From: Moheibacter sediminis
Lineage (GTDB): Bacteria; Bacteroidota; Bacteroidia; Flavobacteriales; Weeksellaceae
Assembly: GCF_900176425.1 (NCBI RefSeq)
Contig: NZ_FWXS01000008.1
Location: 62,001-126,000 of the forward strand
Reading direction: 5' to 3'
DNA length: 64,000 nucleotides
Part shown: positions 18,797 through 33,965 of the stretch, piece by piece
Layout of the letters: each line of letters starts with the position of its first letter
How positions within the stretch are numbered: position 1 is the stretch's first letter
Notes under the pieces: generated by a model
What the model saw: the letters and a program-made list of their open reading frames with translations, nothing else
What the model was told of the DNA's origin: nothing
Databases searched by the model: none
Translations under genes and position numbers: made by a program

Positions 18797-18816
18797 TTGT
18801 GAAATGATTAATCCAA

Positions 18817-18824
18817 CAAAATTA
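18817..18824 (-). promoter_or_regulatory. -7 promoter element of ccsBA
   Basis: Minus strand reads TAATTTTG, matching TAnnTTTG, 21 nt before the ccsBA start codon. Confidence 0.5.
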
Positions 18825-18968
18825 CACCAAGCATCTACATTTAATGCTAAAGGTCAAGTGATTTTTATTAGATATGAATTGAAAAACTTAATTTAAAATT
18901 GTTCTAAATAATTTATTTGCGGACTATTTAAATTTTAATTAAGTTCAGCATCTAATTCAAATGCTGTG

Positions 18969-21731
18969 ATGGAGAATGTCTTTTTGAAAAGAAATTTTAT
19001 TTTGGTTTTGCTGATGTTGGTTTTTGTGCCATTTCATTTGTGGTCGCAACAGCAATTAATTCCTTATGTGAAAAGTTATTCAAAACTCGATTACGATGGT
19101 GAGGCATTGGTTTGGAGTATTTCTCAAACTGCGGATAAACAGATGTATTTTGCAAATAATAAATATCTGCTGCAGTTTGACGGTCATCGATGGCAGAAAT
19201 TTTCTTTGCCCAAGAAGACTATTATCCGTTCTGTATATGCAAAAGGTAATGTAATTTATTCGGGATCTTTAAAAGAATTTGGATTTTGGAAAAATTCAAA
19301 TGATTCACTTGCTTATACTTCCATCTCTCAGAAATTTAATTGTTTTAAGTCTGATGAAAATGATGAGGTCTGGAAAATTTTGGAGTATGATGGAAAATTA
19401 ATTTTCCAAACCTTTTTTTCCTTGTTTGTTTATGATGGAAAATCTGTCAATAAATATAAAACGCCTTCACAAATCAGTTATGTCTTCAATGTGAAAGATA
19501 AATTATATGCTTGCTCTGTTTTCAAAGGAATTTATTTGTTTGATGGTGAAAATTTTGTTGTTGATAAACGTTTCGATGTACTGAAGGGCAAAATTATCCA
19601 TTCAATGATACCTTATAAAGATGAGATTTTAATTTTTACTCTTAAGGATGGTGTTTTTGTACTTAAAAATAATGTTTTATCTGTCTGGGAGAATGCGCTT
19701 AATGAAACATTTAAAAATGAAATGGTAAGTTCTGTAAAGGTAATTTCAGAAAATGTAATTGCTGTCGGTACTTCAGGGAACGGGATGTATCTCGTGGATC
19801 TTAAGGTAAATCAAATTACTAATTTTCATAAAACCAATGGAAGTCTTCAAAACAATACGGTCTTAAGTATATACAAAGATGCAGAATCTAATTTGTGGCT
19901 GGGGTTGGACAATGGAATCTCATTTATACAAAATGATGCAAATGCTTATATTTTTCAGGATTATACTGGCAAACTAGGAAGTGTAAACTCTGTATCTACA
20001 ACAAATAATGGATTTTTTCTTGGCTCGAATAGAGGTTTTTTCAAGTTTGAAAATAAAGAAATTAATTTAATTTCGGGTACTCAGGGTCCTATATGGAGCG
20101 TTGCAGAAATAGGAAATAAATTCATTTTAGGTCACAATACGGAAACAATTTTAGTCGAAAATAACTCTTCCACTAAACTCAATAATTTAGCGGGAGGTTA
20201 TAAATTCTTGAAATTAAGTGATAGCAAATTTATACAGTCCAATTACACAGGGCTGTATTTGTATGAATATAAATCAGGAAAATGGGGATATGAAAAAATA
20301 GCTCCTGAGCTCACTGCACCCATCAATAATTTTATTCAAAAAGATAATACAATCTGGGCATCAGATGCTTATAAAGGAATTTATAGGGTTGATTTGGCAA
20401 ATAATTCTTACGAAGAAATCAAATCTGAAAAAGGTTTGGAAATCTATAATGGTAAAATAGTAGAAATTAATAATCAAATTTATTTTCTGTCTAATCAGGT
20501 GTGGTATGAATATGATACTTGGACCAAAAAATTGAAACGATCTGAAAGGCTAAATCAAATGCTGCCTTATATAGATAATGTTGCGGGTTTAGAAAAAAAT
20601 ATGTTATTGGTTCAGTCAAGTGAATCACTGTCAATTGTGAAAATTGAAGATCAAAAAATTATTTGGAAAAATATACCGGAAAAGTATTATAAAGGAAAAA
20701 TTGTAAATGATTGGCTTTCACCTTACTTGCAAAACGGTTATTTATTTCTAAACCTTGATAATGGATTTCTTAAATACAAAATTTCATTTGAAAACACCAA
20801 ACGACCTACGGTTTATATTGAAGCACAAGTAAATGGAGAAAAAATGCCTTCAGGTAAGAAAATTGGTTACTATAATAATGCAGTAGATTTTTACATTTCA
20901 ACTCGTGAATACGGATATTCTGAACAAAATTTATACTATAAACTTTTGCCATTAGATGATACATACAGACCTTTGAAGGACGGAAAATTAAATTACAGCC
21001 ATCTTTCAAACGGAAGCTATAAATTGTCAGTTGCAATCAAATCCGGGAATTATTACCATGAGCTAAAATCATTTGAATTTCGAGTGAAAAAACCTTGGTT
21101 CATTTCTAATCTGATGATAGTGTTCTATGTGCTCTCAGTCTTCCTGATTTATTTTCTTTACCACAGTTTCATTCAACGCCAAAACAAACAAAAGCTGGAA
21201 CAGCTTCAGCATGAAGTAGAACTTCAGAAAGAATTGGTTAAAATGAAAAGCGAGGCGCAGAAGAAAGAAGCTGAACATTGGGTCGAAAAACAAAAGCTCG
21301 AACATGATGTGAAAAGTAAAACAACGGAGTTGGCTTCACGTGCACTTTCCATCGCATCACAAAGTGAATTGCTGATAGAATTGGAATCAATCATGAAGAA
21401 CATTGATGAGGATGCAAATAGCAAAACAAAGAAAGATATTGCAAAGATTCTACGAGATTACAATTACAATCAAAATGAATGGAAAGTTTTTGATACCAAC
21501 TTACACGAACTACACGAAGATTTCATTTCAAGACTTGTAAAATCATATCCAAACTTGACGTCCAAAGACATCAGATTGGCAATTCTTTTACGAATGAATA
21601 TGACATCAAAAGAGATAGCCCCACTGATGAGAAAAAGTTTTAGGAGCGTCGAACTACAACGTTATAGATTGCGTAAAAAAATGAAGCTTTCCTCTCAGAC
21701 CAACCTTTCTAAGTTCTTTTTGAATTTCTGA
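18969..21731 (+). CDS. membrane-spanning propeller/HTH transcriptional regulator of the PUL
   Basis: A 920-residue one-component regulator. A signal/anchor helix (about 10-28) precedes a long periplasmic region of two-component-regulator-type beta-propeller repeats (about 40-630) and a Y_Y_Y domain (about 640-705). Then come a membrane helix (about 715-735), a coiled coil (about 740-800) and a C-terminal LuxR-like helix-turn-helix (about 855-915; SKDIRLAILLRMNMTSKEIA). It has no histidine kinase or receiver domain, unlike hybrid two-component sensors. I chose the ATG at 18969 over an adjacent GTG. It lies directly upstream of susC and presumably senses an oligosaccharide in the periplasm to control the locus. 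Regulators of this build are common in Bacteroidota PULs. Confidence 0.88.
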   Translation: MENVFLKRNFILVLLMLVFVPFHLWSQQQLIPYVKSYSKLDYDGEALVWSISQTADKQMYFANNKYLLQFDGHRWQKFSLPKKTIIRSVYAKGNVIYSGSLKEFGFWKNSNDSLAYTSISQKFNCFKSDENDEVWKILEYDGKLIFQTFFSLFVYDGKSVNKYKTPSQISYVFNVKDKLYACSVFKGIYLFDGENFVVDKRFDVLKGKIIHSMIPYKDEILIFTLKDGVFVLKNNVLSVWENALNETFKNEMVSSVKVISENVIAVGTSGNGMYLVDLKVNQITNFHKTNGSLQNNTVLSIYKDAESNLWLGLDNGISFIQNDANAYIFQDYTGKLGSVNSVSTTNNGFFLGSNRGFFKFENKEINLISGTQGPIWSVAEIGNKFILGHNTETILVENNSSTKLNNLAGGYKFLKLSDSKFIQSNYTGLYLYEYKSGKWGYEKIAPELTAPINNFIQKDNTIWASDAYKGIYRVDLANNSYEEIKSEKGLEIYNGKIVEINNQIYFLSNQVWYEYDTWTKKLKRSERLNQMLPYIDNVAGLEKNMLLVQSSESLSIVKIEDQKIIWKNIPEKYYKGKIVNDWLSPYLQNGYLFLNLDNGFLKYKISFENTKRPTVYIEAQVNGEKMPSGKKIGYYNNAVDFYISTREYGYSEQNLYYKLLPLDDTYRPLKDGKLNYSHLSNGSYKLSVAIKSGNYYHELKSFEFRVKKPWFISNLMIVFYVLSVFLIYFLYHSFIQRQNKQKLEQLQHEVELQKELVKMKSEAQKKEAEHWVEKQKLEHDVKSKTTELASRALSIASQSELLIELESIMKNIDEDANSKTKKDIAKILRDYNYNQNEWKVFDTNLHELHEDFISRLVKSYPNLTSKDIRLAILLRMNMTSKEIAPLMRKSFRSVELQRYRLRKKMKLSSQTNLSKFFLNF

Positions 21732-21735
21732 TAAA

Positions 21736-21784
21736 TACATCATTTAATTTCATAAACTACATCATTTATACATCATTTGATGTA
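21736..21784 (+). promoter_or_regulatory. candidate operator array: three TACATCATTT repeats plus a palindrome
   Basis: TACATCATTTA occurs at 21736-21746 and 21758-21768, and TACATCATTTG at 21769-21779. Starts are 22 and 11 nt apart, so they fall on the same face of the helix. The third copy continues into TGATGTA, making TACATCA-TT-TGATGTA, a palindrome with perfect 7-bp arms. An inverted near-copy lies at 21855-21865. The array sits between the regulator gene and susC, upstream of the susC promoter, as expected for binding sites of the PUL regulator. Confidence 0.6.
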
Positions 21785-21854
21785 TTTCTAACTTTCTGAT
21801 TCTTTTAAAAGCTATTTTGTATAAAGGATTTGAATCGTTGTGTACTAAATACAC

Positions 21855-21865
21855 TAAATGATGTT
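21855..21865 (-). promoter_or_regulatory. inverted copy of the TACATCATTTA site
   Basis: Reads TAAATGATGTT, the reverse complement of AACATCATTTA, one base different from the direct copies at 21736-21779. It is 45 nt upstream of the susC -7 element. Confidence 0.5.
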
Positions 21866-21909
21866 TCTTTTATGAGTTTTTAACTTTTCCATAACAAATC
21901 ATTCCTCAC

Positions 21910-21917
21910 TAAATTTG
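21910..21917 (+). promoter_or_regulatory. -7 promoter element of susC
   Basis: Reads TAAATTTG, matching TAnnTTTG, 18 nt upstream of the susC start. A weak TTTT-containing -33 candidate lies near 21884-21889. Confidence 0.55.
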
Positions 21918-21934: not shown

Positions 21935-24829
21935 ATGAGGAAAATTTTATTAACATCAATTTTTGTGTCCATAGCTGGAGTGCTATCGGCACAAGAAGAT
22001 TCCCTCCGAATCGATCAATATTCGGTTGAGGAATTATCAGATTCTCTAGATGGAGATTTTGGATTGGAATTAGAAGAGACCGTAGTCGTAGGTTATGGCA
22101 CTCAGAAAAGAGGTGACTTAACTTCTGCTGTTTCATCAGTGAAAGCAGAAGACATCATGAAACAACCCGCAACAACTGCGATGCAGTCTTTACAAGGTAA
22201 ATTATCAGGTGTTAATGTGTTAAATTCAGATGCACCTGGGGCAACTCCAACTGTAATCATCAGAGGTATGGGTACAGCCTTAAATGGAATGAATCCATTG
22301 TATATTGTAGATGGTTTGGTAGTTTCCAACATTAATAACATCAACCCTAATGACATTCAAAGCATTGATGTACTGAAAGATGCTGCCTCTTCTGCAATTT
22401 ATGGTGTACGTGGAGCAAACGGTGTCGTAATAGTAACTACCAAAAGAGGTAGAGGTAAAACACGTATTACTTATGATGCTTATGCCGGAGTTCGTAACGC
22501 TATGAATATGGTAGATATGGCAGGTACTCAGGAATATGTTCAGTATTTCAATGAAGCGGAAGCAGCTGCCGGGGGTATAGAATTCTTAAGTACAAGCCAA
22601 CCTTACAATACTGATTGGTTTGATGAAGTATTGAATACAGGAATGTTCTTTAATAATAGCGTTGCAATATCCGGATCAAGTGATAATTTTGGTTATTATT
22701 TTGGGGTTGACCACTTTGCTGAAGAAGGAATCTTAGATGATAATAAATTTAAACGTACTACGGTTAGAAATAACAATGATTATAAGCTGTTTGATAATCG
22801 TTTAAGAATTAGCCAAAATATAAGTGCAACCTTTACGCATGAAATACCAAAACCTTTTGGAGCAATCGATTTGGCTTACCGTCAATCTCCTTTAATGCCT
22901 GTGACTTTTGCAGATGGTACTTGGGGTGTGCCTAATTATAATGTGGAAACTGGAGTTGCTGGACCAATTGGACAACCAATGAATTCTCATGGTAATCCGG
23001 TAGCTAATTTATATTTCAATAATGAAAAAATTAATACAACTACCTTACAAGGTAATTTGGAAGCAACTTTAGATATCGTTGACGGATTGTCTGTTACTTC
23101 TCGTGCAGGTGCAACTAAATATTGGTACAATAAAAGAGCATTTGCCCCTCTTTTAGATCAATGGTTGGCCGCAGATCCTACTAGGACTGAGGCTCAATAT
23201 ACTGGAAATAAGAATTCTTTGACTTTTAATGAAATTGAAACTTTTCGTTGGTCTTGGGAAAATTTTGTAACTTATACCAAAAGTTTTGGAAGTCATAACC
23301 TTTCTGCCGTTGTAGGTGTAAATGCAGAAGAGCAGTCAATAGGATTTTTTAGTAATATGACTGGTTATAATGTTCCTGTAGAAGAACAATATTGGTCGAT
23401 TCATCATGCTACTGGAGAAACGACGATTGATCAAAATAATTACACGAAAAAATCATTAGCGTCTTACTTTGGAAGGTTGCAATATGATTTTGATAAACGC
23501 TATTTCATTACTGCTATCATTAGACGTGATGGTTCAAGTACATTTTATGATAATAAAGATTTTTGGGGAACATTTCCTTCTATAAGTGCTGCTTGGAATG
23601 TTACTAACGAAGAATTCTTGAAAGACAATGGTGTTATAAATTTCTTGAAATTAAGAGGAGGATGGGGTAAGCTAGGAAATGATAATATTCCTTTTATTGT
23701 TAATAAAATAAATACTAGCCTCGAAAGTAATTCAGCAAATTACGTTTTTGGACCTGGTCAAGATTTAATTTTTGGAGCATATTTAGGTTCACCTGTTAAA
23801 GATGTTTCTTGGGAAATAGTGAAAGAATATGGTGGAGGAGTTGATTTTGAATTTTTAAGTGGTAAACTTTTTGGTACTGCAGATTATTATCACAAAACTA
23901 CAGAAAATGCTATTTTGAAAATTACTCCTGTTTATAGTTCAGGTTTTAATGAGGATTTCTATGATCATGCAGCGGAAATTGTCAACAAAGGTTACGAATT
24001 TTCATTAGGTTGGAGAGATAATACTTCTTCCGGTCTTAGATATTCTGTTAGTGGAAATATTAATTTCAATGACAATGAAATTGTAAGTGTACTTCCTGCG
24101 TACGAAGGTATGATGGGTGGTTCTTTAGGTAATGGAAGATTGACAAAGCGTTTAGAAGCCGGACAGGAGTTAGGATCTTGGTGGATGTATGAAGTCGAAG
24201 GCATTTGGCAATCTGATGAAGAAATAACAAATAATCCACATATTGCAGGTGCTCAGCCTGGATTCTTACGTTATAAAGACCAAAACGGAGATGGTGTAAT
24301 TGATGACCGTGACAAAAAATTCTTTGGTGGTTATATTCCTTCTTATACTTATGGAGTTAATTTATCATTGGAGTACAAAGGATTTGATTTCAGTGTTACA
24401 GGATACGGAGTGGGTGGAAACAAAATCTACAACGGTATCAACAATGCGAGAATAGGAGGTGAAAATGTTTCTATGGAAATGTATAACGATCGTTGGACAG
24501 GTGCTGGTACCAGCAATACCAATCCTGGGGCATACAGAGATTATGAAGCATCTAATTATTACTTGGAAGATGGAGACTATTTCCGTTTGAGCAATGTGAC
24601 ATTGGGTTACAACTTCAGAGATATGTTTGGAGCAGCTAGAAATATGAGAGTTTATGTTACAGCTCAAAACTTGTTCATGATTACTAAATATTCTGGATTT
24701 ACACCTGAATTGACTAGGAATACTGGCGACCAGCCTTATGATGGTAATCCTTATGGAACCACAGGTGTTGAATTATCTGCTTACCCAACAATTAGAACAT
24801 TCTTGGCAGGTGTTAATTTTGAGTTTTAA
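21935..24829 (+). CDS. SusC/RagA-family TonB-linked outer-membrane transporter
   Basis: Imports oligosaccharides across the outer membrane with its SusD partner, energised by TonB. The 964-residue protein has a signal peptide (cleavage after VLSAQ, about residue 20) and the family start of the plug (ETVVVGYGTQKRGDLTSAVS near residue 50). The plug then contains VIIRGMGT and NPLYIVDGL, followed by a 22-strand barrel ending in VNFEF. It lacks the N-terminal carboxypeptidase-regulatory-like domain present in most SusC proteins, including the second one here. Instead a short acidic linker (about 21-45) precedes the plug. susD follows 28 nt downstream. Confidence 0.95.
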   Translation: MRKILLTSIFVSIAGVLSAQEDSLRIDQYSVEELSDSLDGDFGLELEETVVVGYGTQKRGDLTSAVSSVKAEDIMKQPATTAMQSLQGKLSGVNVLNSDAPGATPTVIIRGMGTALNGMNPLYIVDGLVVSNINNINPNDIQSIDVLKDAASSAIYGVRGANGVVIVTTKRGRGKTRITYDAYAGVRNAMNMVDMAGTQEYVQYFNEAEAAAGGIEFLSTSQPYNTDWFDEVLNTGMFFNNSVAISGSSDNFGYYFGVDHFAEEGILDDNKFKRTTVRNNNDYKLFDNRLRISQNISATFTHEIPKPFGAIDLAYRQSPLMPVTFADGTWGVPNYNVETGVAGPIGQPMNSHGNPVANLYFNNEKINTTTLQGNLEATLDIVDGLSVTSRAGATKYWYNKRAFAPLLDQWLAADPTRTEAQYTGNKNSLTFNEIETFRWSWENFVTYTKSFGSHNLSAVVGVNAEEQSIGFFSNMTGYNVPVEEQYWSIHHATGETTIDQNNYTKKSLASYFGRLQYDFDKRYFITAIIRRDGSSTFYDNKDFWGTFPSISAAWNVTNEEFLKDNGVINFLKLRGGWGKLGNDNIPFIVNKINTSLESNSANYVFGPGQDLIFGAYLGSPVKDVSWEIVKEYGGGVDFEFLSGKLFGTADYYHKTTENAILKITPVYSSGFNEDFYDHAAEIVNKGYEFSLGWRDNTSSGLRYSVSGNINFNDNEIVSVLPAYEGMMGGSLGNGRLTKRLEAGQELGSWWMYEVEGIWQSDEEITNNPHIAGAQPGFLRYKDQNGDGVIDDRDKKFFGGYIPSYTYGVNLSLEYKGFDFSVTGYGVGGNKIYNGINNARIGGENVSMEMYNDRWTGAGTSNTNPGAYRDYEASNYYLEDGDYFRLSNVTLGYNFRDMFGAARNMRVYVTAQNLFMITKYSGFTPELTRNTGDQPYDGNPYGTTGVELSAYPTIRTFLAGVNFEF

Positions 24830-24857: not shown

Positions 24858-26279
24858 ATGAAAAAAAATATAATTAAAATAACATTAATTGCTGTTCTTG
24901 GACTTATGGGGTCTTGTTCAGATGATTTTTTGGATGTAGATCCAAGAGAAAACATAGAGGATGTTGATAGTAATTTGGATCCGGAATTTTATGTAAATTC
25001 TACTTACGGTTCCTATACAGAATGGGATTTTGCATTTTCCTGGTTAGGAGTTACGGAAATGATTTCAGATAACGCTGACAAAGGAAGTTCTCCCTCAGAC
25101 GCAGGAGGAGATAAAAATTTGTTAGATGCTTTGACACATACAAGTACAACAGGTTCTATTCAGGCAATGTGGACACGCTTTTACACCACAATAAACAGAG
25201 CAAATTATGCTTTAGGTTACATAGAAAATTATGACGAAGCTTATGGTTTAGATGCTGCATATAAAAATCGTTTGATTGGAGAAGCGAAATTCTTGCGAGC
25301 TTTGAGCTATTTCTATTTGGTTAGAATGTTTGGAGATGTACCTCTTTTGGACATTAACGAATCTGCATCATGGGGTGTGAGAGTTACAAAGTCTGAAATA
25401 TACGCTTACATAGAAGCAGATTTGCAAGATGCCATCAGCAAATTACCAAACAAAAATGAATATCCAGCAGAAGATTTGGGTCGTGCAACTAAAGGCGCAG
25501 CGCAAGGTCTTTTGGCAAAAGTTTTCTTATACGAAGAAAAATGGCAAGATGCTTATGATATGGCAGGGACTGTCATGAGTACAGGTGGATATGGGTTAGA
25601 GGCTGATTATGCAACAGTTTGGAGAGAATCAACTGAAAATGGAATTGAATCTTTATTCGAAATCCAAGCAAGAGGAGAAGTCGTAGCACATGGTGTTCAG
25701 CAATATTCTCAAACACAAGGTGCCCGTGGTACAAGTGGTTGGGGTTGGGGATTCAATACGCCGTCTCAAAATTTGTTAGATGCTTTCAATGCTGAAGGAG
25801 ATAACATCCGTCGTGATGCAACCATTATTTTCAGAGGGGAAACACTTTGGGATGGTAGAGAAGTTTCAGTTGAAGTAGAAAATCCTATGTACAATGAGAA
25901 AGCATACACAAGCTTCAATTCAGGAGATGGTGATACGGACAAAAACATCCGCGTAATCCGTTATGCTGAAATCCTTTTGATCAGAGCTGAAGCCGCAACT
26001 TATGTAGGTGGTGACGCTGCAGGTCCATTGAATCAGGTTAGAAATAGAGTTAATTTAGCTCCGATTGCGAGTCCAACAGTTCAGAACATCTGGAAAGAAA
26101 GAAGATTGGAACTGGCATTTGAGCATGACCGTTGGTTTGATATTGTGCGTACAGGACAAGGTCAGGCTGCGATGGCTGCAGATGGTAAAACATTTGTTGT
26201 TGGAAAACATGAATTGTTCCCGATTCCAAATGCTCAGTTAATCCAAACACCAAATATGACCCAAAATCCGGGTTGGTAA
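24858..26279 (+). CDS. SusD/RagB-family glycan-binding lipoprotein
   Basis: Surface lipoprotein that caps SusC and binds the oligosaccharide. The 473-residue protein has a lipobox (GLMGSC, Cys20) and then acidic residues (SDDFLDVDP) typical of surface-exported lipoproteins of this phylum. Further family marks are FLRALSYFYLVRMFGDVPLL near residue 145 and WKERRLELAFEHDRWFDIVR near 415. It pairs with the upstream SusC and is followed by the first GH144 gene after 22 nt. Confidence 0.95.
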   Translation: MKKNIIKITLIAVLGLMGSCSDDFLDVDPRENIEDVDSNLDPEFYVNSTYGSYTEWDFAFSWLGVTEMISDNADKGSSPSDAGGDKNLLDALTHTSTTGSIQAMWTRFYTTINRANYALGYIENYDEAYGLDAAYKNRLIGEAKFLRALSYFYLVRMFGDVPLLDINESASWGVRVTKSEIYAYIEADLQDAISKLPNKNEYPAEDLGRATKGAAQGLLAKVFLYEEKWQDAYDMAGTVMSTGGYGLEADYATVWRESTENGIESLFEIQARGEVVAHGVQQYSQTQGARGTSGWGWGFNTPSQNLLDAFNAEGDNIRRDATIIFRGETLWDGREVSVEVENPMYNEKAYTSFNSGDGDTDKNIRVIRYAEILLIRAEAATYVGGDAAGPLNQVRNRVNLAPIASPTVQNIWKERRLELAFEHDRWFDIVRTGQGQAAMAADGKTFVVGKHELFPIPNAQLIQTPNMTQNPGW

Positions 26280-26301: not shown

Positions 26302-27663
26302 ATGACGAAATACCTCATTTTATTTATATGTTTTATAACAATCCTTGGATGTAATCCTCCGGCGCCTGAAACCTCAGTAGGCGCTGGGGAGATTACTTCT
26401 CATGATAATAATCAATTGCTGGACGAGGTTCAGAAAGATGTTCTCAAATATTTTTGGGATTATGCCGAACCTAATTCCTTACTTGCAAGAGAAAGATACC
26501 ATCCTGACGGGCTTTATCCTGAAAATGATTCACATATTATTACTTCAGGCGGTTCCGGTTTTGGATTGATGACTTTATTGGTCGGAATTGACAGGAAATT
26601 TATTCCGCGTGATGAAGCTGTAAAACGCTTACACCATATGATGGATTTTCTTGCAAAAGCAGACCGTTTCCACGGCGCATGGTCACATTGGATGGATGGT
26701 AAAACCGGAAAGGTGAAACCATTTGGTCAAATGGACAATGGTGGAGATTTGGTCGAAACCGCATTTTTGGTACAAGGTTTAATTTGTGTCAAAGAATATT
26801 TCAAAAACGGAAACGATTCCGAAAAACAATTGGCTCAAAAAGCCGATGAACTCTGGAAAGGAGTCGAATGGAACTGGTACACCAAAGACGAAGATGTTCT
26901 TTATTGGCACTGGTCTCCAGAATATGAATGGAAAATGAACTTCGCATTGAAAGGGTACAACGAATGTTTGATTACTTATGTTTTAGCAGCGTCTTCTCCT
27001 GATTATTCAATTTCAAAAGAAGTATTTGACAAAGGCTGGAGCCGTTCCGGCAAAATTAAATCAGATGTAAAAAAATATGACGTTCCGGTTATTGTAAATC
27101 ACAATGGCGAACCCGGTTCAGTCGGGCCGTTATTTTGGGCGCAATATTCCTATATTGGTTTAAACCCAAAAGGACTTTCCGATGATTATGTAAATTATTG
27201 GGATTTGAATGTAAATCATTCAAAAATTATTTATGAATACTGTGTAGAAAATCCAAAACAATTTAAAGGTTACGGAAATAATTTTTGGGGATTGACTGCG
27301 AGTTACACAAGAAACGAAAATGGAGAAATGGGTTACACAGCACATTCTCCGCAAAATGACACAGGTATTGTAACACCTACGGCTGCATTGTCGTCTTTTC
27401 CTTATACACCAAAGGAATCTATGGATTTTTTAAAATTTATTTACAACAAAGAAAATAAGAACAAATTCATCGGGCCGGCAGGTCCTTATGATGCTTTGTC
27501 GATACAATATGATTGGGTGGCGAAAAACTACCTCGCAATCGATCAGGGACCAATTGCGCCTATGATTGAAAATCACCGTACAGGATTGATTTGGAAATTA
27601 TTCATGCAAAATGAAGATGTGCAGAAAGGGTTAGCGAAGTTGGGTTTTAAAGTAGCAAAATGA
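26302..27663 (+). CDS. GH144-family endo-beta-1,2-glucanase lipoprotein, copy 1
   Basis: Member of the 'glucoamylase' Pfam family PF10091, which includes CAZy family GH144, endo-beta-1,2-glucanases that release sophorooligosaccharides. The 453-residue protein has a lipobox (ITILGC, Cys17). Conserved stretches across the (alpha/alpha)6 fold are GGSGFGLM, DRFHGAWSHW, DNGGDLVETAFLVQ, YWHWSPEYEW, GPLFWAQYSYIGL, AHSPQNDTGI, GPAGPYDA and IDQGPIAPMIENHRTG. It probably acts on the outside of the cell or in the periplasm. Its last 4 nt overlap the start of the second GH144 gene. The family assignment is strong; substrate follows from characterised members. Confidence 0.88.
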   Translation: MTKYLILFICFITILGCNPPAPETSVGAGEITSHDNNQLLDEVQKDVLKYFWDYAEPNSLLARERYHPDGLYPENDSHIITSGGSGFGLMTLLVGIDRKFIPRDEAVKRLHHMMDFLAKADRFHGAWSHWMDGKTGKVKPFGQMDNGGDLVETAFLVQGLICVKEYFKNGNDSEKQLAQKADELWKGVEWNWYTKDEDVLYWHWSPEYEWKMNFALKGYNECLITYVLAASSPDYSISKEVFDKGWSRSGKIKSDVKKYDVPVIVNHNGEPGSVGPLFWAQYSYIGLNPKGLSDDYVNYWDLNVNHSKIIYEYCVENPKQFKGYGNNFWGLTASYTRNENGEMGYTAHSPQNDTGIVTPTAALSSFPYTPKESMDFLKFIYNKENKNKFIGPAGPYDALSIQYDWVAKNYLAIDQGPIAPMIENHRTGLIWKLFMQNEDVQKGLAKLGFKVAK

Positions 27664-29048
27664 AAAAGTTTTTCGGATTAATTATTTTCAGTTTTTTAAT
27701 TTTCAGTTGCAGTTCATCAGACGATACGGTAGCAATAATTGATGATGGCAATGGTGGCAATAATGATACCGATCCGGAAACTGAAATCAGTTTTGATCCG
27801 ATTGACAATAACCAATTGATGGACATCGTCCAGAGAGAAACTTTCAAATACTTCTGGGATTATGCCGAAACAAATTCAGGCGCGGCACGCGAAAGATACC
27901 ACCCAAGTGATCCTGGAAATAGTTCCAATGTAGTTGCGACAGGTGGTTCCGGATTTGGATTGATGTCAATTTTGGTCGGAATCGAAAGAGGTTATGTTTC
28001 AAGAGATCAAGCTGCAATCAGAATTCAAACCATTCTTAATTTCTTCGAAAATGCAGACCGTTTTCATGGCGCATGGCCGCATTGGTTAAACGGAACTTCA
28101 GGAGATGTAATTCCTTTTAGTACGCAGGATGACGGCGGGGATTTGGTGGAAACTTCATTTTTAGCAATGGGATTAATTTCAGTTCGCGAATATTTCAAAA
28201 ACGGAACCCAACAAGAAGTCCAATTATCTCAAAAAGCAGACGACCTTTGGAAAGGAATTGAATGGGACTGGTATACCAACGGGCAAAATCAATTGTATTG
28301 GCATTGGTCTCCGAATCACGGATTCGCTATTAATCTTGCTTTGAAAGGTTACAACGAAACTTTGATTACATACGTTTTGGCAGCAGCTTCGCCTACACAT
28401 CCGATTTCTCAAAATACTTATCAGTTTGGTTGGGCAAGTGGTGGTGGATTTTTGAATTCTAATATTTTGTATGAAATTCCTATGTTGGTAAAACATGGCG
28501 GAAATTCATCGAATGTTGGACCGCTATTTCTTTCGCATTATTCCTTTTTGGGGTTAGACCCGAGAAATCTGCGAGACCAATACGTAAATTATTGGGAGGT
28601 CGCCAAAAATCATTCTTTGATTAATTACCAATATGCGCTTGCCAATCCACAAGATTACCAAGATTACGGAAAATACGTTTGGGGATTGACGGCAAGTTAT
28701 ACTTATCAGGCAGGTGGCGGAATGAGTTACGCAGCACACAGTCCGGCAAATGATACGGGTGTAATTTCACCAACGGCGGCCGTAAGTTCGATCGTTTATA
28801 CACCAGAACAATCCATCGATGCCATGCAATATTTTTATCATAGACGAGATATCCTGATGGGACCTGCAGGATTTTATGATGCATTCAGTCCGGAAAGGAA
28901 TTATTGGGTAGCACAAGCTTATTTGGCAATTGACCAAGGACCAATGATTATCATGATTGAAAATCACAGAACACAATTGTTGTGGAATCTCTTTATGGGA
29001 GCGGATGATGTGCGTACGGGTTTAACGAATTTAGGGTTTACATATTAA
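27660..29048 (+). CDS. GH144-family endo-beta-1,2-glucanase lipoprotein, copy 2
   Basis: A 462-residue paralog of the preceding gene, with the same conserved blocks (GGSGFGLMS, DRFHGAWPHW, DDGGDLVETSF, YWHWSPNHGF, GPLFLSHYSFLGL, AHSPANDTGVISP, GPAGFYDA, IDQGPMIIMIENHRT). It has its own lipobox (IFSC, Cys17) and an acidic, glycine/asparagine-rich linker (about 20-45). The start codon overlaps the previous stop as ATGA. Tandem duplication followed by divergence is the simplest reading. The two may differ in chain-length preference or in which side of the outer membrane they face. Confidence 0.88.
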   Translation: MKKFFGLIIFSFLIFSCSSSDDTVAIIDDGNGGNNDTDPETEISFDPIDNNQLMDIVQRETFKYFWDYAETNSGAARERYHPSDPGNSSNVVATGGSGFGLMSILVGIERGYVSRDQAAIRIQTILNFFENADRFHGAWPHWLNGTSGDVIPFSTQDDGGDLVETSFLAMGLISVREYFKNGTQQEVQLSQKADDLWKGIEWDWYTNGQNQLYWHWSPNHGFAINLALKGYNETLITYVLAAASPTHPISQNTYQFGWASGGGFLNSNILYEIPMLVKHGGNSSNVGPLFLSHYSFLGLDPRNLRDQYVNYWEVAKNHSLINYQYALANPQDYQDYGKYVWGLTASYTYQAGGGMSYAAHSPANDTGVISPTAAVSSIVYTPEQSIDAMQYFYHRRDILMGPAGFYDAFSPERNYWVAQAYLAIDQGPMIIMIENHRTQLLWNLFMGADDVRTGLTNLGFTY

Positions 29049-29098: not shown

Positions 29099-29809
29099 AT
29101 GACAAAAAAAATATACATATTCATCATTATTCTAATTTCAAACGTAAATTTCGCGCAGCAAACTAACGGAAAATTCAAAGAAAAAGTGGAAATAGAATTT
29201 GAATTAAATTATCTGCTTCGATTACCCGAAAAACCTCAAGGGAAATATCCGTTAATGATTTTTCTTCATGGCGCAGGTGAGCGCGGAACCGATATTAACA
29301 AAGTAATTGCAAATGGACCGCTTCAGGATAAATACAAAGAATATACAAAAGAGTTCGCCATTCTAGCTCCACAATGTCCGGAAGGTCAATACTGGGATGT
29401 AGAAGCGGTTTATCAGTTAATTAAAAAAATAATAAAGGACAATAAAAACATCGATACCAATCGAATTTACCTTACAGGATTGAGCATGGGTGGTTGGGGA
29501 AGCTGGCGCTTGGCGGAAAAACACCCGGAAATGTTTGCAGCTTTGGTAACGGTTTGCGGACCTGCAGGGTTGCCGGAAAAACGTGAAGCTCATTTAATTA
29601 AAGATATTCCAACCAGAATTTTTCACGGTGCGCTTGATGATGTTGTTCCGGTAGATAATTCGATTCAAATGTACCAAGAATTAAAATCTTTAGAAGCAGA
29701 TGTTGATTTGACAATTTTTAAAGATGATAATCACAACAGTTGGGATTCAACTTATTCAAATCCTGAATTGTATAAATGGATTTTAAAACAGCGAAAAACT
29801 AAAATATGA
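29099..29809 (+). CDS. secreted esterase of the alpha/beta-hydrolase fold (dienelactone hydrolase/PHB depolymerase-like)
   Basis: A 236-residue exported hydrolase with a signal peptide ending NVNFAQ (residue 20). The oxyanion motif FLHGAGERG is at 55-63, and the nucleophile Ser129 is in GLSMGGWG. Asp180 or Asp181 and His212 (DDNHNSW) complete the triad. Such enzymes are common in PULs as carbohydrate esterases or peptidase-like hydrolases; here the target could be ester groups on the glucan. The stop overlaps the GH3 start by 4 nt (ATGA), placing it firmly in the operon. Confidence 0.85.
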   Translation: MTKKIYIFIIILISNVNFAQQTNGKFKEKVEIEFELNYLLRLPEKPQGKYPLMIFLHGAGERGTDINKVIANGPLQDKYKEYTKEFAILAPQCPEGQYWDVEAVYQLIKKIIKDNKNIDTNRIYLTGLSMGGWGSWRLAEKHPEMFAALVTVCGPAGLPEKREAHLIKDIPTRIFHGALDDVVPVDNSIQMYQELKSLEADVDLTIFKDDNHNSWDSTYSNPELYKWILKQRKTKI

Positions 29810-32091
29810 CACGTAAACTGATTTTACTATGTACACTTTTTGGATTTGCTTTTGGTTTTGGCCAGAAAGTGAAATTCGACAAGAAAAAGCCTAAAGACCA
29901 ATTCATCAATGAAATAATTTCTCAAATGACTTTGGAAGAAAAACTTGGACAGTTAAATCTTCCGAGTTCCGGAGATTTTACAACCGGACAAACCAAAAGT
30001 TCAAACATCGGGAAAAATATTGAAGCCGGAAAAGTAGGTGGATTGTTCAATATAAAAGGTGTTGACAGAATCAGAGACGTTCAGAAAGTAGCAGTAGAAA
30101 ATAGCCGTTTAGGGATTCCTTTGATTTTCGGAATGGACATTATCCACGGTTATGAAACCGCTTTCCCGATTCCTTTGGGATTGGCAGCGAGCTGGGATGT
30201 TTTAGCTTATGAAAAAGTAGCGAGAGTTTCCGCACAAGAAGGAACAGCTGACGGTATCAACTGGACTTTTTCGCCGATGGTCGATATTTCGCGAGATCCG
30301 CGTTGGGGGCGTATATCTGAAGGTGGAGGTGAAGACACTTACCTCGTGAGTCAAATGGCAAAATACATGGTCAAAGGTTATCAGGGAGATGACTTGGCTG
30401 CAAAAAATACAATGTTGGCTTGTGTGAAACATTTTGCATTGTACGGTGCGCCAACAGGGGGGCGTGATTACAACCATGTGGATATGAGCCGCTGGACAAT
30501 GTTTAATACGTATTTTCCGCCTTACAAAGCCGCTGTAGATGCGGGGGTAGCCTCTGTGATGATGTCTTTCAATGATGTGGACGGAATTCCTGCAACTGCC
30601 AACAAATGGTTGATTGACGATGTTTTACGCAAACAATGGGGATTTGATGGTTTTGTAGTAACGGACTACACGGGTATCAACGAAATGGTGGAACATGGAA
30701 TGGGAGATTTGAAACAAGTTTCTGCTTTGGCTTTGAATGCCGGAGTGGACATGGATATGGTTGGTGAAGGATTTTTAACAACCATTGAAAAATCTTTGCA
30801 GGAAGGAAAAGTGACGATGAAACAAATCGATGATGCGGTTAGGAGAATTTTAGAAGCGAAATACAAATTAGGTTTGTTTGAAGACCCATACCGTTATACC
30901 GATTCAAAACGTGCTAAAGCTGAAGTTTTTTCAAAAGAAAATGTGGCAGAATCGCGTAGAATTGCTTCTGAAACTTTTGTTTTATTAAAGAATGAAAATC
31001 AGGTTTTACCCTTAAAACCAAATTCAAAAATCGCATTGGTAGGTCCGATGGCTGATGCAGCAGATAATATGCCGGGAACTTGGTCGGTAGCTGCAAGATT
31101 TGAAGCTTCGGTCTCTGTAAAAATGGGATTGAAAGATAAAAATGTGGTTTATGCACATGGTTCCAATTTGGTAGATGACAAAGTTTTGTTTGATAACTCT
31201 ACAATTTTTGGGAAAAAGCCAAGATGGGATGACAGAAGTGCGGATGAATTAATCAAAGAGGCGGTTGAAGCAACTAAAAATGTGGATGTAATCGTAGCTG
31301 CAGTTGGGGAATCTTCTGAAATGAGCGGAGAAAGCAGCAGCATGGTCAATTTGGATATTCCCTTGGCGCAGAAAAGATTATTGCAAGCGATGTACGATAC
31401 CGGAAAACCGGTTGTAATTGTGCTTTTCACAGGTAGAGCTAAAACTTTGATGGAAGAAAATGAAAAAGCAGATGCAATTTTAAATGTTTGGTTCGGCGGA
31501 ACAGAAACCGGAAATGCTGTTACAGATGTTTTGTACGGAAAAGTAAATCCAAGCGGTAAATTGCCGGTAACTTTCCCGAGAAGCGTGGGTCAGATTCCGA
31601 TTTATTATTCACATTTCAACACTGGAAGACCATTGAGTGATGAAAAATCTGATGGTTGTACTTTTGAAAAATTCCGTTCAAATTATCTGGATGAATGTAA
31701 CACGCCTTTGTATGAATTTGGATTTGGACTTTCTTACACGACTTTTGATATTTCAAATTTAAAACTGGATAAAACAACCATCAATCAGGGCGGTTCTGTG
31801 AAAGTTTCCGTTCAGGTAAAAAATACCGGAAATTATGACGGAACAGAAGTGGTTCAATTATATACAAGAGATTTGATTGGTTCGATTTCAAGACCTGTAA
31901 AAGAATTGAAAGGATTTCAAAAAATTTTCCTGAAAAAAGGAGAATCTAAGACAGTTGAATTTAATTTGACAACGGAAGATTTGAAATTTTACAATGCTGA
32001 AATGAAGTTTGTAGCAGAGCCGGGAGAATTCGAAGTCTTTGTAGGAAATTCATCCAACGCAAAATTAAAATCCAAATTTGAATTAAAATAA
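29806..32091 (+). CDS. bglX: GH3 beta-glucosidase (BglX type)
   Basis: Removes glucose from the non-reducing end of beta-glucan oligosaccharides, probably in the periplasm. The 761-residue protein has a signal peptide (ends FGFGQ, about residue 20), an N-terminal TIM barrel with the nucleophile aspartate in FVVTDYTG (about residue 287), an alpha/beta sandwich domain and a C-terminal fibronectin-III-like domain (about 670-755). Some BglX-like GH3 enzymes of Bacteroidota act on beta-1,2-linked glucose disaccharides, which fits the GH144 context. The gene symbol reflects family resemblance only. It overlaps the upstream esterase by 4 nt. Confidence 0.92.
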   Translation: MTRKLILLCTLFGFAFGFGQKVKFDKKKPKDQFINEIISQMTLEEKLGQLNLPSSGDFTTGQTKSSNIGKNIEAGKVGGLFNIKGVDRIRDVQKVAVENSRLGIPLIFGMDIIHGYETAFPIPLGLAASWDVLAYEKVARVSAQEGTADGINWTFSPMVDISRDPRWGRISEGGGEDTYLVSQMAKYMVKGYQGDDLAAKNTMLACVKHFALYGAPTGGRDYNHVDMSRWTMFNTYFPPYKAAVDAGVASVMMSFNDVDGIPATANKWLIDDVLRKQWGFDGFVVTDYTGINEMVEHGMGDLKQVSALALNAGVDMDMVGEGFLTTIEKSLQEGKVTMKQIDDAVRRILEAKYKLGLFEDPYRYTDSKRAKAEVFSKENVAESRRIASETFVLLKNENQVLPLKPNSKIALVGPMADAADNMPGTWSVAARFEASVSVKMGLKDKNVVYAHGSNLVDDKVLFDNSTIFGKKPRWDDRSADELIKEAVEATKNVDVIVAAVGESSEMSGESSSMVNLDIPLAQKRLLQAMYDTGKPVVIVLFTGRAKTLMEENEKADAILNVWFGGTETGNAVTDVLYGKVNPSGKLPVTFPRSVGQIPIYYSHFNTGRPLSDEKSDGCTFEKFRSNYLDECNTPLYEFGFGLSYTTFDISNLKLDKTTINQGGSVKVSVQVKNTGNYDGTEVVQLYTRDLIGSISRPVKELKGFQKIFLKKGESKTVEFNLTTEDLKFYNAEMKFVAEPGEFEVFVGNSSNAKLKSKFELK

Positions 32092-32126: not shown

Positions 32127-33965
32127 ATGGAAAACAATCAAATAAAAACAAATTACCCAGCTTTATACACACTTATCGTGGTATTTTTCTTTTGGGGGTT
32201 TATTGCAGCGGGCAATAGTATTTTCATTCCTTTTTGTAAAAGTTACTTTTCTTTAGACCAATTTCAGTCACAGTTAGTAGATTTTGCATTTTACACAGCC
32301 TATTATTTAGGAGCTCTTTTACTTTTTATAATGAGTTCTGTCAAAGGAAAAGATTTGGTCGGTAAATGGGGATATAAAAAGAGTATTGTATATGGGCTTT
32401 TGTTTTCTGCTTTAGGAGCAGTCGCGATGATTATAGCTGTAGAGGTAAATATGTATGCCGGAATGTTGTTAGGTTTATTCATTGTAGCATTGGGTTTTTC
32501 TTTGCAACAAACTGCGGCAAATCCATTTGCATATTTGCTCGGTGATCCCAAAACAGGTGCAAGCAGGGTAAATTTGGGTGGAGGAATTAATTCTTTCGGA
32601 ACTACTATTGGTCCTTTGATTGTTGCATTCGCTCTTTTTGGAACAACGGCAGCCGTTTCCGATGATGAAATTGCTGGTTTACCATTGAACAAAGTAGTTT
32701 ATCTATATGCTTGTGTGGGATTGTTATTTGTAGCAGCTGCAGCATTATTTCATTTTTCTAAAAAGGTTCCTGCAGGTATTTCAGATGAACCAATGGAAAA
32801 GGCAAATAAAGCCATCAATGTACTTGTAATTATGACTATTTTATTAGGAGTAATGTTTATTCCGGTTTTTAATAGCTATAATACCGATGAAGCAAAAAAA
32901 ATAGTTGAAATTGAAGGCACAATTGCTCCAACAACAAAAATGATCGAGCAAAATAACAATTCAATATCTCAAATTAAAAAAGATCAAAATCTTAGTGAGG
33001 ATCAAAAATCTGATCAAATTGAGGTTTTAAATGTGAAGAATGCTGAATTGAATTTATTAATTAAACCTCAAGTTGATGAAATTAATGAGATAAGACATCC
33101 TTTGGAAAAGAAAAGAATGTATTGGTTAGGTGGAGCTTTGTTGGTAGTGATTGGCGGTCTGGTAATTGCCGGAAGTCTAGCGAGAAAAAAAACAGAAGGA
33201 TGGGGAGCAATGCAATATCCACAAGTTATTTTGGGGATGTTAGCTATATTTACCTATGTAGGTGTTGAGGTGGCAATCGGCAGTAATTTGGGAGAATTAC
33301 TGAAATTACCAGAGTTTGGCGGACATAGTTCTTCTGAAATCGCACCCTATATTTCTATGTATTGGGGGAGTTTGATGATTGGTCGTTGGGCAGGATCAAT
33401 TGCAGTATTCAATTTATCAAAAAGTAAGAAAATGATTGCACTCATTGTCGTGCCTTTGATAGCTTTTTCAGTTATTTTGATCGTTAATATTATTGCCCAA
33501 AAAGATATGACACCTCTTTATTATTATATCATCTGTATTTTGATTCAGATTGCCATGTTTTTTATTGCAAAAGACAGACCAGCAGCAACAATGCTTATTT
33601 TCGGAATAATGGGAATCGCAGCCATGCTAATAGGTTTGTTTTCTGAAGGGACTGTTGCGATTTACTCATTCTTGGCTGGTGGATTGGCTTGTAGTATCAT
33701 GTGGCCATCTATTTTTAGTTTGGCAATTACAGGATTAGGTAAATACACGGCGCAAGGTTCTGCTTTTTTAGTAATGATGATTTTGGGTGGAGGAATTATT
33801 CCGCCAATTCAAGGAAAATTAGCAGATATTATTGGAATTCATAATTCTTACGTAATTCCTGTTCTTTGTTTTGCTTACCTTACATTGTTTGCTATTTTGG
33901 TAAAATCAGCTCTCAAAAAACAAGGAATTGATGTGGATAATATTGAATCAAGTGGTGGACATTAA
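32127..33965 (+). CDS. MFS sugar transporter (FucP/GluP-like) with periplasmic coiled-coil insert
   Basis: Imports monosaccharide, probably glucose, across the inner membrane. The N-terminal half (about 10-215) has six helices and the family stretch [20 protein letters not shown]. The C-terminal half (about 365-600) has [20 protein letters not shown]. At 612 residues it is about 170-200 longer than usual FucP/GluP carriers. The extra part is a helix (about 233-252), an acidic/lysine-rich coiled coil (about 255-330) and another helix (about 333-351) inserted between the two halves. It is the last gene of the main PUL operon, closed by a terminator. Confidence 0.9.

Follow-up and report, generated by a model that had tools for sequence, protein, structure and literature searches.

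The repeat cluster between the gene for a putatively membrane-anchored one-component regulator and the neighboring susC gene is very probably the operator of that regulator. In the arrangement suggested by sequence comparison, a distal array of phased direct repeats and an inverted promoter-proximal site would act together, through DNA looping, to activate the susC operon. Comparison of many loci established the architecture of this region, its conservation beside related regulators and the covariation of its letters with two residues of the regulator. Throughout, the window is the whole stretch of DNA that was analyzed (64,000 nt), and positions are counted from its first letter.

A Direct-Repeat Array and an Inverted Site Upstream of susC

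The stop codon of the regulator gene (21731) and the ATG of susC (21935) are separated by a gap of 203 bp, and the array lies between them, as a first-pass annotation of this DNA had stated. The three direct copies that it had reported, starting at 21736, 21758 and 21769 and thus 22 and 11 bp apart, were confirmed. Its 11-mer TACATCATTTA occurs without mismatch at 21736-21746 and at 21758-21768, and with one mismatch at 21769-21779; the word that is conserved, however, is the 7-bp TACATCA, and the 11-mer does not stand as the repeat unit. The inverted copy noted at 21855-21865 is present with one mismatch and belongs to a longer site at 21859-21876, TGATGTTTCTTTTATGAG, which consists of a degenerate pair with a spacing of 11. 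The palindrome with 7-bp arms around copy 3 (TACATCA-TT-TGATGTA, 21769-21784) was found in the window but not in L002, a locus of the same genus. The features discussed below are as follows.

18966-21731, plus strand: gene of the putatively membrane-anchored one-component regulator (ORF, 921 residues)
21654-21659, plus strand: codons of recognition-helix residues x1 (Leu897) and x2 (Gln898), the candidates for setting specificity, which covary with half-site bases 4 and 5
21736-21742, plus strand: distal half-site 1, TACATCA; the copy at -22 is also found in L002 and L036
21758-21764, plus strand: distal half-site 2, TACATCA; forms with half-site 3 the spacing-11 pair kept across the regulator family
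21769-21775, plus strand: distal half-site 3, TACATCA; partner of half-site 2 in that pair
21778-21784, minus strand: TGATGTA, the other arm of the palindrome at copy 3; not present in the closest relative and of doubtful function
21859-21865, minus strand: proximal inverted half-site TGATGTT; of 35 class-A loci, 29 have TGATGT ahead of susC (1.0 in shuffled sequence)
21870-21876, minus strand: TTATGAG, a degenerate partner located 11 bp beyond TGATGTT, with which it makes up the proximal inverted pair
21910-21917, plus strand: candidate promoter -7 element TAAATTTG, a match to the Bacteroidetes consensus
21935-24829, plus strand: susC (SusC/RagA TonB-dependent receptor; TIGR04056, 684.9 bits), presumed first controlled gene

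The Regulator Models as a LuxR-Type Protein

The regulator comprises a putative signal peptide, a propeller (Reg_prop, 23.2 bits in Pfam), a putative transmembrane segment at about residues 711-735 and a C-terminal HTH of the LuxR/GerE type; signal peptide and transmembrane segment were assigned from the sequence by eye. Its sensor part is related to 4a2l, 3v9f and 3va6/3ott (phmmer E values of 2.5e-19 to 3.8e-8). The Pfam model GerE scored 17.6 bits on the C-terminus and 20.7 bits on a paralog from the same genome (L007), both under the gathering cut-off of 23.5. We modeled the C-terminal domain, which gave a tetrahelical HTH with a pLDDT of 87. A Foldseek search with this model listed DosR (rank 1), RcsB (4), VraR (7), LiaR (13) and NarL (32) among the first 50 matches; there, LuxR-type matches had probabilities of 0.97-1.00 and TMt values of about 0.7-0.8 for the isolated domains, the best E value was 0.049 and none was ≤0.001. 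The domain models as a LuxR-type HTH, in which x1 and x2 would be part of the recognition helix: both are contained in predicted helix 89-102 of the model. The HMM alignment places x1-x2 opposite T-H of EsrB (VETHR), and we take Val189 of NarL to be the counterpart of x1. RcsB touches bases through K180 and S184, two residues of its recognition helix, according to the accessible part of the report (PMC5829831); aligned by eye, K180 corresponds to the invariant E that precedes x1.

The Array Is Conserved beside Orthologs and Paralogs

The same-genus ortholog (L002, genome G001) is 61% identical to the regulator. Immediately 3' of its stop codon, TACATCA is found three times at spacings of 22 and 11, followed by a proximal inverted TGATGT, and TGATGTTTC recurs near the promoter. 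All eight family genomes with an ortholog (E ≤ 1e-60; 320 searched) carry the 11-bp direct pair after the regulator gene, and in two of them (L033, L035) the first copy begins with C instead of T.

To describe the spacing without reference to a motif, we used loci with a downstream susC. A usable regulator ORF was available for 120 of 146 loci, and the 96 loci with a downstream susC were reduced to 63 non-redundant regulator-susC gaps by keeping a single member of each 80%-identity group. At spacing 11, 40 of these 63 gaps contained an exact direct repeat of 7 letters, as compared with 0.7 in dinucleotide shuffles, and at least six of seven letters were repeated at this spacing in 55 of 63 (10.2 shuffled). 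The next-commonest spacings were 8 (10 loci, 0.8 shuffled) and 22 (7 loci, 0.7). Among 73 held-out regions, spacing 11 gave exact repeats in 18 (0.9 shuffled) and at least six of seven letters in 48 (14.3), the next-commonest spacing being 32 (7 loci). Exact repeats were found in only 11 of the 52 held-out K-class regions (classes are defined below), because the two half-sites often differ there. An outer copy, counted in the 124 of 129 loci whose pair scored at least 15, lies at exactly -21 in 30 of 63 K-class loci and at -22 in three; elsewhere it is rare, with 3 of 55 at -22.

The paralog in the same genome (L007/L299, G000:C12:77095-94000) shares 31% identity with the regulator and belongs to class K. 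It has a CACAACA array, and ACAACA occurs three times at spacings of 21 and 11 both here and in its ortholog. Two paralogs of one genome are thus accompanied by different half-sites, TACATCA in the window and CACAACA at L007. At locus L157 (G631:C4), the regulator gene and susC are separated by an ORF of about 180 codons; the 11-bp pair is located about 170 nt upstream of susC, away from the regulator.

Some loci show other arrangements. At L109 and L115, whose regulators have E-I-C in the recognition helix, the direct pair is reversed in orientation (two TGATGTA, 11 bp apart) and lies about 100-120 nt past the regulator stop codon. L041 contains four copies of TACATCA about 14-67 nt past the stop codon, starting at -204, -180, -169 and -158 relative to the ATG of susC; three consecutive copies follow each other at 11-bp steps.

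The Tandem Unit, Not the Single Repeat, Is Rare in the Genome

A genome-wide motif search, proposed in the first-pass annotation, had a divided outcome. The single 11-mer is not enriched, neither in the window (43 matches when 2 mismatches are allowed, 47 expected) nor in the genome (10 exact copies, 7 for the reversed pattern), and we rejected it as a regulon marker. The tandem unit TACATCA-N4-TACATCA, on the other hand, has a single exact match in the 3.2-Mb genome and none with one mismatch; with two mismatches, 60 sites were found, whereas the reversed pattern gave 12 sites with two mismatches or fewer.

In 395 genomes sampled from the order, exact tandem units gave 66 matches in 45 genomes, and the reversed pattern 14 matches in all (counted from the table). 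Thirty-three of the 66 places (32 outside the family of the window, plus the window itself) were compared with 36 hand-picked regulator places, from a listing restricted to the two top candidates of each genome. Of these 33 units, 25 start 30-101 nt past the end of the regulator match and two more are regulator-susC loci (L157, L182). Five of the six leftover units (L155, L168, L177, L183, L184) have no susC or regulator match within the fetched 3 kb; the sixth is located at G614:C1:4651253.

The other 33 exact units are located in family genomes in which no ortholog of the regulator (P0001) was detected at E ≤ 1e-60 (G034, G043, G044, G047, G188, G198 and others; up to six per genome). At G198:C7, four tandem units overlap, and G198 also encodes a relative of the sensor part of the regulator.

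Two Residues of the Recognition Helix Covary with Two Bases of the Half-Site

We classed the regulators by the residues x1 and x2 in the pattern R[SG][VI]E-x1-x2-RYR. In the 63 loci, for which the class patterns were drawn up after viewing these same loci, the distal half-site of the regulator's own class was present in 35/35 loci of class A (1.0 shuffled), 6/6 of class T (0.2) and 18/18 of class K (2.8). In this set, no locus of class A, T or K combined a distal and a proximal site of the wrong class, and K-type half-sites occurred in 10 of the 35 class-A loci (5.3 expected).

A held-out test served as the independent check. The prediction was fixed before 80 unseen regions were fetched; 73 were scored, the remaining seven being without a recognizable HTH pattern. 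Within the scored range of 0-130 nt (the range set beforehand had been 0-200 or 0-320 nt), the distal site was found in 13 of 14 class-A regions (0.3 shuffled) and 48 of 52 class-K regions (7.4), the proximal site in 11 of 14 (0.7) and 43 of 52 (0.1), respectively. Scoring over 0-200 nt gave 13/14 for A, 50/52 for K (10.0 shuffled) and 2/5 for T. Words of the wrong class also turned up among the 52 K-class regions, six of which had the TACATCA type (0.8 expected) and nine TGATGT (2.1). Class A had one miss, L241; this is the L157 regulator, whose pair lies near susC beyond the intervening ORF.

For x1=T, the prediction failed as first stated, with the distal site in 2 of 5 regions (0.1 shuffled) and the proximal site in 1 of 5 (0.2). 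All three failures are T+K regulators, and in two of them base 4 is G and base 5 is A, which led us to read the two residues separately. The simple class rule for x1=T (2/5) was replaced afterwards by this two-residue rule.

We then pooled both sets and counted residues and bases in 129 of 135 loci without near-identical regions (L095 has no match to the HTH pattern), using a half-site picker that gives equal weight to A and T at base 5 and to A, G and T at base 4. With x2=K, base 5 is A in 67/67 second and 65/67 first half-sites; with x2=H or Q, it is T in 51/56 second and 50/56 first half-sites and A in 4/56. G at base 4 of either half accompanies x1=T in 10 of 11 loci, as compared with 3 of 118 for other x1 residues. 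Fisher tests over the 129 loci, not corrected for kinship, gave 1e-11 for x1 and 2e-30 for x2. The revised forecast for T+K regulators, CACGACA, held in seven of nine new ones, three of the seven having G in one half-site only; G at base 4 was found in 0 of the 19 other K loci of this set, some of which had been seen previously. The exceptions are T+K regulators without G at base 4 (L239, L274 and L283, the last without an array) and loci with this G but without x1=T (L222, L254, L263). On a quick tree that covers 75 regulators, leaves out the HTH and does not contain L239, x1=T requires two changes and x2=K one. The x2 association therefore counts as one independent event, and the link to x1 has two origins.

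From these sequence comparisons, we propose a code in which L, I or V at x1 would specify A or T at base 4 and T would specify G, and in which H or Q at x2 would specify T at base 5 and K would specify A. A broader reading is offered tentatively, at somewhat less than an even chance: a widespread flavobacterial family of membrane-anchored glycan sensors may apply this two-residue/two-base code to 11-bp-phased repeats that face an inverted promoter site, with residue changes keeping paralogous regulons apart and membrane-held proteins looping the promoter.

The Promoter-Proximal Site Varies with the Regulator Class

Across many loci, the inverted proximal site varies with the same class as the distal array. 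Class-T loci have TGACGT or TGGCGT in 6 of 6 cases (0.1 shuffled), and 12 of 18 class-K loci have a longer form like ATGTATGTTTTTTGT (0.0 shuffled). For the pair as a whole, IH-class loci offer the comparison TGATGTA-TTTT-TTATGTA. The proximal TGATGT is missing in 6 of 35 class-A loci, including the near relatives L031, L033 and L034.

Searching 60-120 nt, we determined the distal-to-proximal distance in the 56 loci with exactly one proximal match. It varies between 76 and 113 bp: 78-84 and 94-98 in class LH, 90-92 and 102-105 in class T, 100 and 110-113 with one locus at 76 in class VK, and 88-92 with one at 103 in class IH. That distances within a class tend to lie about 11-12 bp apart is at most suggestive of helical phasing between the distal and the proximal sites, the species being related.

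The -7 element of Bacteroidetes promoters has the consensus TAnnTTTG, which the candidate at 21910-21917 matches. A scan for σ70-type promoters found promoter-like sites at the level of shuffled sequence (2 found, 2.5 expected).

A Model for the Probable Operator and Its Alternatives

The first-pass annotation had suggested that the array is the operator of the adjacent regulator. The comparisons support this assignment, because the layout is conserved beside orthologs and paralogs, the tandem unit is nearly unique in the genome and its letters covary with recognition-helix residues. In the proposed mechanism, the C-terminal LuxR-type HTH would read a 7-bp half-site with variable bases 4 and 5 (TACATCA here), residue x1 setting base 4 and residue x2 base 5. 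Protomers would be arranged head-to-tail on direct repeats one helical turn (11 bp) apart, with the outer copy two turns off, and a second group of protomers would occupy the inverted site at 21859-21876, which precedes the predicted transcription start of susC by about 50-55 bp. An oligosaccharide sensed by the periplasmic propeller would cause the cytoplasmic HTHs to assemble and to bridge or loop both sites, and the proximal subunits would then recruit RNA polymerase to the susCD-hydrolase operon. Binding of the regulator to the array, activation and not repression, looping and the inducer are what we infer from the comparisons.

Among the alternatives, a true operator under negative or mixed control deserves attention, even if we consider it unlikely: the proximal site alone would activate, and the distal array would repress or tune the promoter. 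Judged from the coordinates, about 150-190 bp separate the array from the predicted start downstream of it, which is far for direct contact with polymerase, and the proximal site takes a position usual for an activator; the co-occurrence of both sites in 29 of 35 class-A loci, however, suggests joint use. There is little to suggest autoregulation: the gap that precedes the regulator gene (18797-18965) has no exact half-site and only one with a single mismatch, TACACCA at 18823. That the repeats are bound by some other regulator, either global or encoded elsewhere, seems quite improbable. It would account for the exact tandem units in genomes without a detected ortholog (E ≤ 1e-60), but the repeat letters track the class of the adjacent regulator even between two paralogs of one genome, and the exact unit is unique in its own genome.

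The repeats could also act at the RNA level or as a terminator, at the 3' end of the mRNA for the regulator, through a hairpin made by the copy-3 palindrome together with inverted copies that flank it. The stretch in the window can indeed pair (-8.4 kcal/mol, z of -1.69), as can that of the paralog L007 (z of -1.79), and an inverted copy immediately follows the array in L138, L132 and L139. Yet a terminator scan found no terminator-like site, L002 has the array without the hairpin (z of +1.56), and z is +0.13 for L031 and 0.0 for L136. It is the direct repeats and not complementary arms that are conserved, and they covary with protein residues; the hairpin being weak and not conserved, we rejected this explanation, which has very little probability left. 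Chance clustering of an AT-rich word is hardly credible at all: the lack of enrichment of the 11-mer and the 60 two-mismatch units would fit it, but the unit is unique in the genome at 0-1 mismatch and its spacing is conserved across 63 loci.

Comparison with Known Systems

ComA of Bacillus subtilis binds a direct-repeat site, TTGCGG-5nt-TTGCGG, with an 11-bp period, as stated in the part of the article available to us (PMC4797271). As far as that part goes, both systems share a LuxR/NarL-type HTH, a direct repeat of 11-bp period and the presence of direct and inverted sites in one promoter. ComA, however, is a soluble response regulator that recognizes a hexamer of other sequence and an inverted site with a 4-nt spacer, whereas the regulator described here is putatively membrane-anchored, with a 7-bp half-site and an inverted site 76-113 bp from the direct array in the loci measured. 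By analogy, the ComA precedent makes a LuxR-type HTH on 11-bp direct repeats plausible.

SusR-like regulators of Bacteroides have a predicted motif of two direct sites with centers 67 or 77 bp apart (PMC3878776, accessible part), and in the literature within reach this is the nearest described arrangement. According to the same text, these are membrane-bound one-component regulators of PULs encoded beside susC, their motif consists of two separated sites, and similar regulators have similar motifs. Here, susC follows a Reg_prop regulator whose putative signal peptide and transmembrane segment were read by eye, and in place of the 67/77-bp layout we found an 11-bp direct pair with an inverted site 76-113 bp further on. 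HTCS of PULs, in the description available from PMC3878776, combine kinase, receiver and AraC domains and have direct-repeat motifs with a spacer. A related periplasmic propeller sensor and spaced direct repeats are thus common ground, but the HTH of the regulator models as LuxR type, unlike the AraC domain of HTCS, and no kinase, receiver or AraC match was found in it with Pfam.

In 2013, the DNA sites of SusR and the HTCS studied were unknown and the predicted motifs were still to be tested, as far as the accessible text of PMC3878776 tells. Our literature search, with most subscription journals outside its reach, returned no description of the present operator, nor is it described in the accessible parts of PMC3878776, PMC12125979 and PMC10316084. 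The regulator family is found in 76 of the 395 genomes of the order at E ≤ 1e-60, and for this family the comparisons offer a concrete operator layout together with a simple, falsifiable recognition code, which would permit target sites to be predicted from protein sequence.

Gene Content of the Presumed Operon and of Related Loci

Downstream of susC, the genes of the presumed operon are arranged as follows.

24858-26279, plus strand: susD (PF07980)
26302-29048, plus strand: two PF10091 glycoside hydrolases (26302-27663 and 27660-29048; Pfam)
29099-32091, plus strand: alpha/beta hydrolase (29099-29809) and GH3 glycosidase (29806-32091)
32127-33965, plus strand: MFS transporter (27.0 bits, under the Pfam cut-off of 33.4)

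The PF10091 and GH3 genes follow in all four relatives examined (G001, G213, G249, G599), and this operon content supports a specific role. In the cluster of the paralog L007, susC is accompanied by GH16 and GH3 genes, and this is probably a laminarin locus. By their enzyme content, beta-1,2-glucan would be the substrate of the PF10091/GH3 operon and laminarin that of the paralog's GH16/GH3 genes. PF10091 is presumably linked to GH144. The accessible part of a paper on GH144 (PMC12102758) does not mention PF10091.

The two SusC proteins also differ in domain composition: the one in the window (21935-24829) has only plug and barrel in Pfam, and the one beside L007 has an apparent extra N-terminal stretch ahead of the plug. 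Elsewhere in the same genome, a two-mismatch tandem unit, TACAACATAAGTACAACA, lies at G000:C10:295699-295716, with an exact TACATCATTTA at 295996-296006. Both lie near a 495-residue open frame with a related HTH (match at 297190-297480), and the pair may be another operator.
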